Notes under the pieces: generated by a model
The model's database searches: none
The model's input: the letters and a program-made list of their open reading frames with translations, nothing else
What the model was told of the DNA's origin: nothing
Shown here: positions 19,135-23,177 of the stretch, one piece after another
Numbering within the stretch: position 1 is the stretch's first letter
Layout: each line of letters opens with the position of its first letter
Source of the DNA: Bisgaardia hudsonensis
GTDB taxonomy: Bacteria; Pseudomonadota; Gammaproteobacteria; Enterobacterales; Pasteurellaceae
DNA length: 64,000 bases
NCBI RefSeq assembly: GCF_004345785.1
Contig: NZ_SLXI01000004.1
Span: forward strand, 1-64,000
Direction: 5' to 3'
Made by a program: the position numbers and the translations under genes

Positions 19135-20667
19135 CTAAAGGTTATTAGATAATTTCTGTAATAATCGATCCATTGCCCGATATCCTAATGCTTCGGCAAT
19201 ATGAGGTTGAGCTATATCTTTTTCTTCTGCTAGATCAGCGATAGTACGAGCGACTTTTAATATGCGATGATAAGCGCGAACCGATAAGCCTAACTTAGTC
19301 AAAGCATTTTCTAGAAAGAAAGCATTATCTTTTGATAACCGACAATATTTTTCGATTTCTTTGCTCGTTAAATAAGCATTAACTTTCCCTGCTCTTGTAA
19401 GTTGAATTTCCCGTATTTTTAACACTTTATTTCTCACTTCTTCGCTAGTTTCTCCACGCTCATTCGTATTTTGTAATGTTCCTTTGGGTAGTAAAGGCAC
19501 TTCAATAGATAAATCGAAACGATCAAGAAAAGGACCTGATAAACGGTTTAAATATCGCATTACTTGCTGGGGTGAAGTGCGGTTATGAATACCAGAATAA
19601 TGACCTGTTGGACTTGGGTTCATCGCTGCAACTAATTGAAATTTAGCCGGAAATAAGATTTTAGCATTGGCTCGAGAAATAATGATTTCGCCACTTTCTA
19701 AAGGCTGTCTTAAAGCATCTAGTACCTTGCGATCAAACTCTGGCAGTTCATCTAAAAATAAAATACCATTATGTGCTAAGGATATTTCCCCCGGTTTGGG
19801 GATCGTACCACCGCCCACTAAAGCAGGTAAAGAGGCACTATGATGTGGTGAACGAAAAGGACGCTTTTTCCAATTATGAAAATTTAATTCATTATGAATA
19901 AGACTAGTAACGGAAGCGGTTTCTATGGCTTCTTGTGTGGTCATTTCAGGGAGTAAATCTGTTAAACGACTCGCTAACATTGTTTTTCCTGTTCCAGGTG
20001 GACCTAGAAATAATAGATTATGTTGTCCTGTTGCTGCAATGGTTAATGCTCGCTTAGCGTGTTGTTGACCTATAATATCAGTAAGATCTCGTTGTATTGG
20101 GTTTAATTGCTGATGGTTATTATTTGATACAATTGCGCTGGCTAAGGGCAATTGATGTCGTTCATTAAGAAAATTAACCACGTCTAACAAGGTTTCAGCA
20201 AAATAGGTTTCTTGATCAACGACTAAGGCTGCTTCATTCGCATTTTGTTTCGCAATAATTAAACGGCGTTTTTGTTTTTTAGCAGCTAAAATAGCAGGAA
20301 TAATTCCTTGAACGCCTCGTAATCCCCCTGTTAAAGCTAATTCACCTAATAACTCAAAATGTTGTAAATATTTACTCTCTAATTGTCCTGAAGCGGCCAA
20401 TATGCCAATGGCGATAGGCAAATCAAAACGCCCCCCTTCTTTTGGTAAATCAGCTGGTGCAAGATTAACGGTAATTCGTTTTGCAGGATATTTAAACTGT
20501 GCATTTAATAATGCACTTCGCACACGCCCTTGTGCTTCCGTAACTGTTTTTTCTGGTAAACCTACAAGGGTAAATGCTGGCTTACCATTGCTAATATGGA
20601 CTTCAATAGTAACTAATGGTGCTTGCACTCCCATAGAAGCACGACTATAAACAACAGCTAACGACAT
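19135..20667 (-). CDS. comM: ComM/YifB AAA+ ATPase, competence-associated helicase
   Basis: I chose the ATG at 20667 (MSLAVVYSRASMGVQAP) because AAGGAGAT precedes it with 7-bp spacing. An upstream in-frame ATG at 20685 lies before that ribosome site and is not used in the family. The 510-residue product has an N-terminal Lon-like ChlI domain (GLPEKTVTEAQGRVRSAL), Walker A GPPGTGKT and Walker B ILFLDELPEF, then a Mg-chelatase C-terminal domain. ComM is a hexameric branch-migration helicase that helps integrate transforming DNA in Haemophilus and related competent species. That fits the uptake sequences found throughout the window. One uptake core lies inside it (19575-19583). Confidence 0.94.
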   Translation of the reverse strand: MSLAVVYSRASMGVQAPLVTIEVHISNGKPAFTLVGLPEKTVTEAQGRVRSALLNAQFKYPAKRITVNLAPADLPKEGGRFDLPIAIGILAASGQLESKYLQHFELLGELALTGGLRGVQGIIPAILAAKKQKRRLIIAKQNANEAALVVDQETYFAETLLDVVNFLNERHQLPLASAIVSNNNHQQLNPIQRDLTDIIGQQHAKRALTIAATGQHNLLFLGPPGTGKTMLASRLTDLLPEMTTQEAIETASVTSLIHNELNFHNWKKRPFRSPHHSASLPALVGGGTIPKPGEISLAHNGILFLDELPEFDRKVLDALRQPLESGEIIISRANAKILFPAKFQLVAAMNPSPTGHYSGIHNRTSPQQVMRYLNRLSGPFLDRFDLSIEVPLLPKGTLQNTNERGETSEEVRNKVLKIREIQLTRAGKVNAYLTSKEIEKYCRLSKDNAFFLENALTKLGLSVRAYHRILKVARTIADLAEEKDIAQPHIAEALGYRAMDRLLQKLSNNL

Positions 20668-20702
20668 AATAATCTCCTTTTTCAATTTAAGAGATTATAA
20701 AA

Positions 20703-20756
20703 AAAGCAAAATAAACAGAATTTATTTTGCTTTTTATTGCGATCGAGATCGCAAAT
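20703..20756. repeat. Terminator-like direct repeat, copy A
   Basis: The first 33 bases are identical to 21515-21547 and form a 13-bp stem (AAAGCAAAATAAA / TTTATTTTGCTTT, loop CAGAA) followed by T's. The next 21 bases match copy B at 17 positions, and here form a second perfect inverted repeat, TTGCGATC-GA-GATCGCAA. It lies between the divergent comM and AhpD-like starts, where no gene ends. Confidence 0.9.
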
Positions 20757-20936
20757 TTACAAAATTATCAAACTTTATTGTTTTATTTATGTAGTGAGAG
20801 TCTTTATATCAAGATTTATGTATAAGATATAAGCGAGTGTTTATTTGTTTAAATTGAAAAATTTTATTGCATTCCTCCATTGTTTTAATTATCTTGCAAA
20901 AACGTTTATTAAATTTTTTACATTATAGGAGTATTT

Positions 20937-21491
20937 ATGGCTCGTTTGACCGTTCATTCAATTAGTAGTGCACCAGAAGAAGCAAAAGCGAGAATGGAAG
21001 CTGTTCAACGCAATAATGGGTTTATCCCCAATTTGATTGGTGTGTTGGCTAATTCACCACAAGCATTGGCATTTTATCAAGAAATAGGGAAAATGAATGG
21101 TACAAATTCATTAACAGCTGAAGAAATTGAAGTTGTACAAATTACCGCGGCTGTACATAATGGTTGTGATTTTTGTGTTGCGGGGCATTCAAAAATAGCA
21201 AAACTACGATTAAAAATGCCTGCTCCAATATTAGAAGCATTACGTAATCGCACTGCTATTGAGGGTAATTTAAAATACCAAGCATTAGCCGTATTTACTA
21301 TGCAACTTATAGATAAGCGTGGTCAAGTATCAGATGCAGAGTTAACCGCATTTAAATCTGTTGGTTATAGCGATCAAAATGTATTAGATGTGATTATGGG
21401 GATTGCGTTGGCAACACTTTGTAACTATGCTAATAATGTAGCACAAACAGAAATTAATCCAGAGCTATCAGACTACTTACCTAATAAGTAA
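20937..21491 (+). CDS. AhpD/carboxymuconolactone decarboxylase family protein
   Basis: A 184-residue protein of the CMD/AhpD-like fold. It has the redox motif CDFCVAGH (Cys-x-x-Cys plus the usual trailing His) near residues 78-85, and the family opening RMEAVQRNNGFIPNLIGVLANSP. Members are often thiol-peroxidase-type oxidoreductases, but the substrate here is unknown. Ribosome site AGGAG lies 7 bp before the ATG. The gene stands alone on the plus strand between engB and comM, both minus-strand. Two copies of a terminator repeat flank it (20703 and 21515), which suggests a later insertion between two ancestral neighbours. Confidence 0.88.
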   Translation: MARLTVHSISSAPEEAKARMEAVQRNNGFIPNLIGVLANSPQALAFYQEIGKMNGTNSLTAEEIEVVQITAAVHNGCDFCVAGHSKIAKLRLKMPAPILEALRNRTAIEGNLKYQALAVFTMQLIDKRGQVSDAELTAFKSVGYSDQNVLDVIMGIALATLCNYANNVAQTEINPELSDYLPNK

Positions 21492-21514
21492 TGATAAACT
21501 TAGATTGGTTGTAT

Positions 21515-21568
21515 AAAGCAAAATAAACAGAATTTATTTTGCTTTTTGTTACGATCAACATCGCAAAT
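21515..21568. repeat. Terminator-like direct repeat, copy B
   Basis: The second copy of the repeat at 20703-20756, with the identical 33-base hairpin portion. It ends 1 bp before the engB stop codon and begins 23 bp after the AhpD-like stop, so it can terminate both convergent genes. The GATCGC inverted repeat of copy A is degraded here. Confidence 0.9.
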
Positions 21569-21569
21569 A

Positions 21570-22184
21570 TTATTCAAATATTGGTGAAAACCATTCATTA
21601 AGTTTATTCGAGAGTTTATCTACACCAAATTTATTTAATGCTGAAAATGCTTCAACTTGAATATCTCCTTGGAAAGGTAAAATAGCTTCTCTCACCATTT
21701 TAATTTGTTTACTTCTTTCACTTTGACTGAGTTTGTCGGCTTTAGTTAGTAATAATAAAATAGGTAAATTAGCAGAAACTGCCCATTCAATCATTTGTTG
21801 ATCGAGGTCTTTTAGTGGGTGGCGAATATCCATTAAAATCACAACCCCCCCTAAGCATTCACGTTTTTGTAAGTATTCTCCTAAAGATTTTTGCCATTGA
21901 ATTTTTACTTTTTCAGGTACTGCCGCATAACCATAACCTGGTAAATCTACGAGTTTACAATTTGGCTCAACTTCAAATAAATTGATTAATTGTGTTCGTC
22001 CTGGTGTTTTTGATGTTCTTGCTAAGTTTTTTTGATTGGTTAATGTATTAAGTGCGGTTGATTTTCCCGCATTTGATCGCCCAGCAAAAGCAATTTCAAT
22101 CCCAGTATCTTCAGGTAATACTTTAATATTCGGTGCACTCATTAGAAAATGCGTTTTTTGGTAGTTCAGTGTGATATCTGTCAT
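21570..22184 (-). CDS. engB: Ribosome biogenesis GTPase EngB (YsxC/YihA)
   Basis: A 204-residue TRAFAC GTPase of normal length. The G1 loop is GRSNAGKST (residues 35-43), the G3 region [13 protein letters not shown] and the G4 motif TKAD, with the G5 region [10 protein letters not shown]. EngB is needed for assembly of the 50S subunit. It is a single minus-strand gene. An uptake core is inside it at 22050-22058. The nearest downstream gene on its strand is comM, which I recall as its direct neighbour in H. influenzae; here the AhpD-like gene lies between them. Confidence 0.95.
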
Positions 22185-22301: not shown

Positions 22302-23177
22302 ATGAGTAAAAATATATACCAATGGCCTAATCCTTTATTAGTTTATCCTGATAGAGAAAATAAATCTTATCGCTTAAAACGTTTTCGTTTTAAATTAAGA
22401 ATGTTATTAAACTACTTCAATATTCAAAAATTTGAAAAATTTATTAATCAACATGATTATTTAATTGATTTATTAAATAATCATCCTATGTACAGCTACC
22501 CTGTGGCACATCGTTTTTTAGATAAGCGTTTTCATGGTACGCAAAAGTTAAACATCATTTGTGAAAATTTAACTTTTTTGCCAAAGAAATTTAAGGAATT
22601 AAAACTTGCTCAATTATGGGAAAAATCAGTAAATTTTGGTGAAGTTATCGAAAATTTTGAGCTAATTTTAAAGATTAATGAATATCAGCCAATGGAAGGT
22701 TATTGGTCTTTGGAGTTAGTACATAAACCAAGCCAAGAATTAATCTATTTATTAACTTTTGGAAAAGTGGAAGATAGTTTATTGATTGGTGTGATTCAAG
22801 GGCCGAATTGTGAAGGCTCAAAAGAGATTGTTAAAGCATTAACTAAACAATGTCATGGTTTGCGTCCTGCTTATTTGATGATTGAAATTATGAAAGCATT
22901 AACCATGGTATTAGGGTATGAAAAGTTGTTTGGTATTCCACAAAAATATCAAAATAAATCTCGATTTGTGCGTAGTAGTCGTTATCTAGTGAATTACGAT
23001 ACACTTTTTAGCGAAAGTGGCGGTAAATTGGAAAAATATTGGGACTTACCTTTAGATATAGGACAGAAAACCTTAGATGGCATTCCTAGTAAAAAACGGT
23101 CAATGTATAAAAAACGTTATGCTATGTTAGATGAGATTATGGAGATTTTAAAAAGTCATTTATTAGCAAATAAATAA
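22302..23177 (+). CDS. VirK/YbjX family protein (DUF535)
   Basis: A 291-residue protein of the VirK/YbjX (DUF535) family, recognised from YLLTFGKVEDSLLIGVIQGPN, LRPAYLMIEIMKAL and the tail KYWDLPLDIGQKTLDGIPSKKRSMYKKR. The fold has an acetyltransferase-like flavour. Known members are linked to virulence or envelope stress in Shigella and Salmonella, but no enzymatic role is settled. It has no signal peptide. A TATAAT at 22267-22272 upstream is a plausible -10. It is a single gene, closed by the terminator at 23181-23210, convergent with gpt. I am confident of the family, not of a function. Confidence 0.85.
   Translation: MSKNIYQWPNPLLVYPDRENKSYRLKRFRFKLRMLLNYFNIQKFEKFINQHDYLIDLLNNHPMYSYPVAHRFLDKRFHGTQKLNIICENLTFLPKKFKELKLAQLWEKSVNFGEVIENFELILKINEYQPMEGYWSLELVHKPSQELIYLLTFGKVEDSLLIGVIQGPNCEGSKEIVKALTKQCHGLRPAYLMIEIMKALTMVLGYEKLFGIPQKYQNKSRFVRSSRYLVNYDTLFSESGGKLEKYWDLPLDIGQKTLDGIPSKKRSMYKKRYAMLDEIMEILKSHLLANK

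Follow-up and report, generated by a model that had tools for sequence, protein, structure and literature searches.

The window, i.e. the whole stretch of 64,000 nucleotides that was analysed, contains comM, a gene for an AhpD-like protein and engB in this order, with comM and engB on the minus strand and the AhpD-like gene on the plus strand (Table 1). The genome it comes from comprises 2,107,214 bases on 21 contigs and is the sole representative of its genus in the comparison. The AhpD-like gene is flanked by two copies of a repeat. Copy 1 (20703–20756) is situated between the divergent starts of comM and the AhpD-like gene, and copy 2 (21515–21568) begins 23 nt past the end of the AhpD-like gene and lies 1 nt past the engB stop codon. 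The AhpD-like protein scores above the cut-off for the AhpD core domain (TIGR00778) and just below it for TIGR01926 (80.7 bits vs a cut-off of 81.8). On the far side of engB, at 22302–23177, a DUF535 gene is located.

Table 1. Features of the comM–engB region of the window
Feature	Position	Strand	Evidence
comM (yifB), competence Mg-chelatase-like AAA ATPase	19135..20667	-	NCBIfam TIGR00368, E 5.8e-236; PRK09862.1, E 1.4e-213
Start codon of comM (ATG)	20667	-	sequence
TATAAT, candidate -10 element of the comM promoter	20694..20699	-	sequence; spacing from the CRP-S site
Hairpin copy 1 (comM side), between the comM CRP-S site and the -10 element	20703..20735	no strand	repeat comparison; folding
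CRP-S site copy 1	20735..20756	-	26.6–27.0 bits (relatives' matrix); 1 mismatch to the 20-nt pattern
Upstream region of the AhpD-like gene	20757..20936	+	comparison with four other genomes
AhpD-like (CMD, peroxidase-related) gene, inserted	20937..21491	+	Pfam PF02627, E 7.2e-10
Hairpin copy 2 (engB side), candidate terminator where the AhpD-like gene and engB converge	21515..21547	no strand	repeat comparison; folding
Decayed CRP-S site copy 2	21547..21568	-	17.0–18.3 bits; 3 mismatches
engB (yihA/ysxC), ribosome-biogenesis GTPase	21570..22184	-	TIGR03598, E 3.4e-74

The first 33 nucleotides of the two copies are identical and 17 of the following 21 match, which makes 50 of 54 positions in total; the hairpin identity and the further similarity named in the original prediction are both confirmed by this repeat comparison. 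The copies are direct repeats, and they can also be paired as inverted repeats (36 nt, 83%) because each of them is a palindrome. No third match of the 31-nt hairpin core is present in the whole genome at up to three mismatches, so the repeat is not a dispersed terminator in this genome and the proposed check came out as predicted. Direct repeats spanning 38 nt or more with an identity of 80% or higher, spaced 300–4000 bp apart, were scanned for in 81 sources with 1,032,400 bases, and 20 rows were returned. Seven of these, from four sources, are mostly outside long ORFs, and the repeat of the window as well as that of the Conservatibacter locus L028 are among them.

As RNA, the hairpin folds 3.5 to 4.9 standard deviations better than shuffled sequences on all four strands. 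By inspection, its stem has two G-C pairs only, with an A-tract paired to a T-tract, and it does not contain AAGTGCGGT. Neither hairpin of the window was listed by a scan with a simple terminator pattern, and such a scan does not favour a stem of this kind; the hairpin is stable in folding and T-runs are noted by eye, yet it is absent from the pattern scan. The T-run of copy 2 in the direction of engB is short. Both the promoter and the terminator pattern scans are uninformative for these A+T-rich sites.

The further 21 nucleotides of the repeat are, judging by their sequence, a palindromic CRP-S (Sxy/CRP competence) site. CRP-S sites are 22-bp palindromes of the TTTTGCGATCNNGATCGCAAAA type. 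In a matrix built from 40 sites of relatives, themselves chosen with this consensus, copy 1 is the best and copy 2 the second best site of the 64 kb, followed by a site of 11.4 bits. On the 20 positions of the CRP-S pattern copy 1 matches at 18 and copy 2 at 16. At up to two mismatches the pattern finds seven sites in the genome, preceding comM, dprA, a prepilin-like gene, rlmN, comEC, a PilM-like gene (Pfam score of 16.7, below the cut-off of 27 bits) and pilA; rlmN is not itself a competence gene. Three mismatches add copy 2 and three other sites, and a reversed control pattern gives one match per strand.

CRP-S sites require both CRP and Sxy, as described in PMC6957337, and the site of copy 1 is of the sequence type known from the CRP-S competence regulon of Pasteurellaceae. 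The CRP-S list of H. parasuis (PMC5809987) shares comM, dprA, comEC (rec-2), pilA and probably comA with the present genome. It also includes comE1, comF, ssb and radC, to none of which a site could be assigned here at up to two mismatches. Unlike in the known regulon, a second, decayed CRP-S copy adjoins engB. The distance from the CRP-S site of copy 1 to the -10 element is 48.5 (by the convention of the script) vs 50.5 in most relatives, i.e. 2 bp off the common value. Since the repeat ends in a CRP-S site, copy 1 most probably represents the comM promoter region itself. The original prediction had placed this copy between two divergent starts, where no terminator is needed; the position was right, and what it missed is that the copy is the promoter region of comM with its CRP-S site.

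The engB–comM interval was compared among relatives using 80 named engB loci kept from the 202 found. comM lies downstream of engB in 41 of them; the other 39 show no comM within the stretch examined, and an AhpD-like match at engB occurs in none of the 80. The interval measures 96–132 nt in 39 of the 41 loci, the outliers being an Avibacterium locus (L043, 210 nt) and the Conservatibacter locus L028 (638 nt). With one copy of the repeat, the interval of the window would be 90 nt, slightly under this range. The best CRP-S-like site of each interval matches 14–20 of the 20 positions, and a second site with more than 13 matches is found only in L028 and is absent from the other 40 intervals. Relatives in which engB and comM are adjacent thus lack the AhpD-like gene there and, with the exception of Conservatibacter L028, have a single CRP-S-like site, as had been anticipated.

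The promoter spacer was analysed in 43 rows (40 loci, both copies of L028 and copy 1 of the window), and a hairpin was regarded as stable at z under -2 and at least 8 pairs. Such a hairpin is located between the CRP-S site and the -10 element in 36 of the 43 rows, so that most of these relatives have the hairpin that follows engB inside the predicted spacer of the comM promoter. By the same criterion it is absent in L043, L046, L050, L055, L066, L068 and L072, so that the overlap of CRP-S site, hairpin and -10 element is not universal. The sequences of the hairpins vary among genera. The spacing between the CRP-S site and the -10 element equals 50.5 in 35 of the 43 rows, a modal value favoured by the choice of the -10 element, which breaks ties toward a spacing of about 50; for L032 it is 50.5 in the narrower range and 64.5 in the wider-range run. 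At two Actinobacillus loci, L055 and L050, which have no hairpin within the promoter spacer, one seems by eye to be placed immediately ahead of the comM start and to overlap the ribosome-binding site.

In a family set of 140 genomes engB and comM are close to each other in at least 77, a number that may not include genomes whose comM start is split off or unlisted. The gap, computed by hand, is at most 160 nt in 67 of these pairs, 161–299 nt in 6 and at least 300 nt in 4. Three loci (L116, L117 and L118) have intervals of 192–213 nt, and their additional nucleotides seem to be located past the -10 element and ahead of the comM start, as a long leader. In nine genomes (G042, G033, G030, G018, G020, G108, G002, G054 and G117) the comM match is split near codon 286 with the pieces about 11 kb or more apart. 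This is the pattern expected from mobile elements inserted in comM, and such insertions have already been described (PMC4774983).

The AhpD-like gene is found in 70 of the 140 family genomes, that of the window included. None of the 69 others has a homologue recognisably at engB: in 33 the gene is on the engB contig at a distance of at least 45 kb, and in the remaining 36 engB was either not found or is on a contig other than that of the gene. The 1.5-kb flanks of 29 AhpD-like loci contain neither engB nor comM, and the neighbours of the gene vary across these loci. In a tree of the window protein and the AhpD-like proteins of 29 of the 69 other genomes, the former groups with genus g40 with support of 100/100, and its nearest kin are the proteins of three g40 genomes (71–73% identity). 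The comM proteins of g40 are only 68–70% identical to that of the window, and genomes with 81–83% comM identity possess AhpD-like proteins of 52–56%; this discord suggests a horizontal transfer. In a class-wide sample an AhpD-like match is present in 110 of 369 genomes, the best one outside the family having 45% identity. The GC3 of the gene (0.212 vs 0.219 with sd of 0.022 in 36 ORFs of the window) is ordinary, and the composition therefore does not speak for a foreign origin in recent times.

The upstream region of the AhpD-like gene has no clear counterpart upstream of the homologue at L084–L087, where only short chance-like matches occur and the L086 stretch includes part of the gene. At L086, which belongs to a g40 genome (G134:C1), the AhpD-like gene matches as two pieces about 35 kb apart. 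A tree of engB and comM was built from the window and 36 of the 41 loci, since five had short comM matches and were dropped. The window stands there beside Histophilus and Avibacterium (support of 86/75 and 90/83), and its placement is unsure because of the long branch and modest support.

Insertion of the AhpD-like gene between engB and comM with duplication of the target region, as put forward in the original prediction, is well supported by the single-block intervals of the relatives and by the non-dispersed nature of the repeat. In the ancestor comM would have been the immediate downstream neighbour of engB, the two genes being separated by a compact block of CRP-S site, hairpin ending the engB transcript and comM -10 element. 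The AhpD-like gene, probably acquired horizontally, would have entered in the opposite orientation, and the comparison demonstrates that the CRP-S/hairpin block ended up on both of its sides. Copy 1 would have stayed the promoter of comM, and copy 2 would have stayed the terminator of engB, presumably serving the AhpD-like gene now as well.

The promoter parts of copy 2 would fire antisense into the AhpD-like gene, and their sequence is decayed. On the comM side a good CRP-S site and the TATAAT are retained; on the engB side the CRP-S site is degenerate, the TATAAT seen beside copy 1 is missing, and the hairpin is intact. The differences between the copies amount to 0 of 33 positions in the hairpin part and 4 of 21 in the CRP-S part (Fisher p 0.019, from a post hoc test that was applied after seeing the data and treats the sites as independent). 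Such a pattern would be expected if selection beside engB has been relaxed for the promoter parts but maintained for the hairpin, toward which two genes converge at this place. The account as a whole, from the ancestral engB–comM block through the insertion and the doubling of the block to the promoter decay in copy 2, appears to us quite likely.

Apart from the AhpD-like gene the insert has no ORF of 60 aa or more, and hence no transposase or integrase; in this respect it differs from a transposon or an insertion sequence. As for the molecular route, our guess would be a template switch close to the palindrome or an illegitimate recombination event in the course of natural transformation. A one-step illegitimate event, a tandem duplication followed by entry of the gene, and integration of a circle are possible forms of it. 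Homology-facilitated illegitimate recombination is a known way of inserting foreign DNA in competent bacteria, as described in PMC3240628.

Among other explanations, the one with an appreciable, although minor, chance is a two-step origin, in which the block (or comM with its promoter) was tandemly duplicated and the gene moved in between the copies, or took the place of one comM copy, at a later time. It is favoured by Conservatibacter, where the duplicated interval extends from just after the engB stop to the comM ribosome-binding site, and it is opposed by the lack of a clear comM or engB remnant beside either copy in the window. The search for such leftovers gave a score of 19 upstream (shuffle mean of 19.8) and 14 downstream (16.2); a larger tandem duplication with engB or comM remnants was rejected, since none rose above letter shuffles. 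A gapped alignment extends a few bases toward the engB end, and this was taken as chance.

Rather improbable is the single-crossover integration of a circular molecule carrying the AhpD-like gene together with a similar CRP-S/hairpin block. Flanking direct repeats would arise from it in one step, and circularisation with single crossover of incoming DNA is documented in E. coli, as reported in PMC3240628; however, the block differs between genera, and no donor was found in a search limited to the AhpD-like gene itself. An ancestral origin of the AhpD-like gene together with both repeats, followed by losses in the relatives, is very unlikely. Presence of the gene in so many family genomes would agree with such losses, but its positions in the 69 other genomes, the flanks of the 29 loci and the 80 engB loci described above give no sign of it beside engB, and the two hairpins are identical, though hairpins vary between genera. 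Ancestral presence is rejected here, the gene not being recognisably at engB–comM in the other genomes examined. The least probable reading of all, a dispersed terminator or small repeat element flanking the gene by chance, could draw on the uptake-sequence hairpins often shared by Pasteurellaceae terminators (PMC1852404), but it is rejected for this genome, where the core occurs only twice at up to three mismatches, the repeat continues through the CRP-S site and the hairpin is devoid of AAGTGCGGT.

Insertion with duplication of the block can also be considered in the light of the other long intervals. The four gaps of at least 300 nt among the at least 77 pairs belong to the genome of the window, G038, G013 and G027, and the gap of G038, probably a Conservatibacter, equals that of Conservatibacter L028. 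They hold the AhpD-like gene, two small ORFs (G038/L028), a DUF535 gene (G013) and an Abi_2 gene (G027), respectively. The DUF535 gene of G013 (L114, 399–1277) lies between engB and comM; that of the window lies beyond engB. In Conservatibacter a duplication of 114 nt with 92% identity surrounds the insert, the duplicated unit extending from just after the engB stop to the comM ribosome-binding site. The small ORFs (L028, 6731–7070; 79 and 32 aa as searched, without a Pfam match) are oriented in the direction of comM behind one copy of the block and have a terminal hairpin of their own. Their position behind a copy of the CRP-S promoter means that they may be candidate competence-controlled genes.

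The duplication is found in two of the four insertion lineages; inspection by eye only revealed none around the inserted gene in G013 (L114) and G027 (L115). A hairpin after engB is present in all four. That of G027, probably an Avibacterium, is of a different kind and directly follows engB (z -5.4). Such a hairpin is also observed in its congener G023 without the inserted gene (z -5.1) and in G025 and G029; since this hairpin occurs in three congeners without the insert, it was not brought by the insert. The engB hairpin of G013 is modest (z -2.5), and the comM-side CRP-S candidate of this genome matches only 14 of 20 positions, a number that an unrelated stretch in the vicinity reaches as well, in contrast to the clear sites of the other three lineages (16–18 of 20). 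If a gene were inserted between engB and comM without duplication, either engB would lose its terminator or comM its activator. From these four lineages, one of them weak, we infer that insertions survive if the block is copied or if engB has a separate terminator. It is proposed that the duplication is seen because the terminator and promoter signals overlap.

In transformable bacteria, intervals between conserved genes that hold different genes in different lineages are called minimal mobile elements. According to PMC3388099, these elements occur in association with uptake sequences and rely on homologous recombination. The four lineages discussed here likewise hold different genes between conserved flanks, as in the Neisseria elements; unlike in Neisseria, the regulatory block is doubled around the insert in two of them. 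A literature search, which most subscription journals lay outside, returned no paper joining CRP-S, a terminator and comM and none joining engB, comM and Haemophilus.

The locus can be regarded as a small natural experiment on the acceptance of a gene into a packed gene boundary, in which the doubled block separates the overlapping terminator and promoter parts and shows which of them decay. The earlier reading of an insertion gains a reason here, as the doubled sequence is presumed to be a terminator and a competence promoter in one. The locus also points to a rule, open to testing, for the survival of insertions at sites of overlapping signals. More tentatively, the engB–comM block may be a conserved two-in-one element, with the terminator placed inside the spacer of an activator-dependent competence promoter of near-fixed geometry. 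Such an overlap would cause gene capture to tend to copy the block and, in some lineages, may put acquired genes, such as the small ORFs of Conservatibacter, under competence control.
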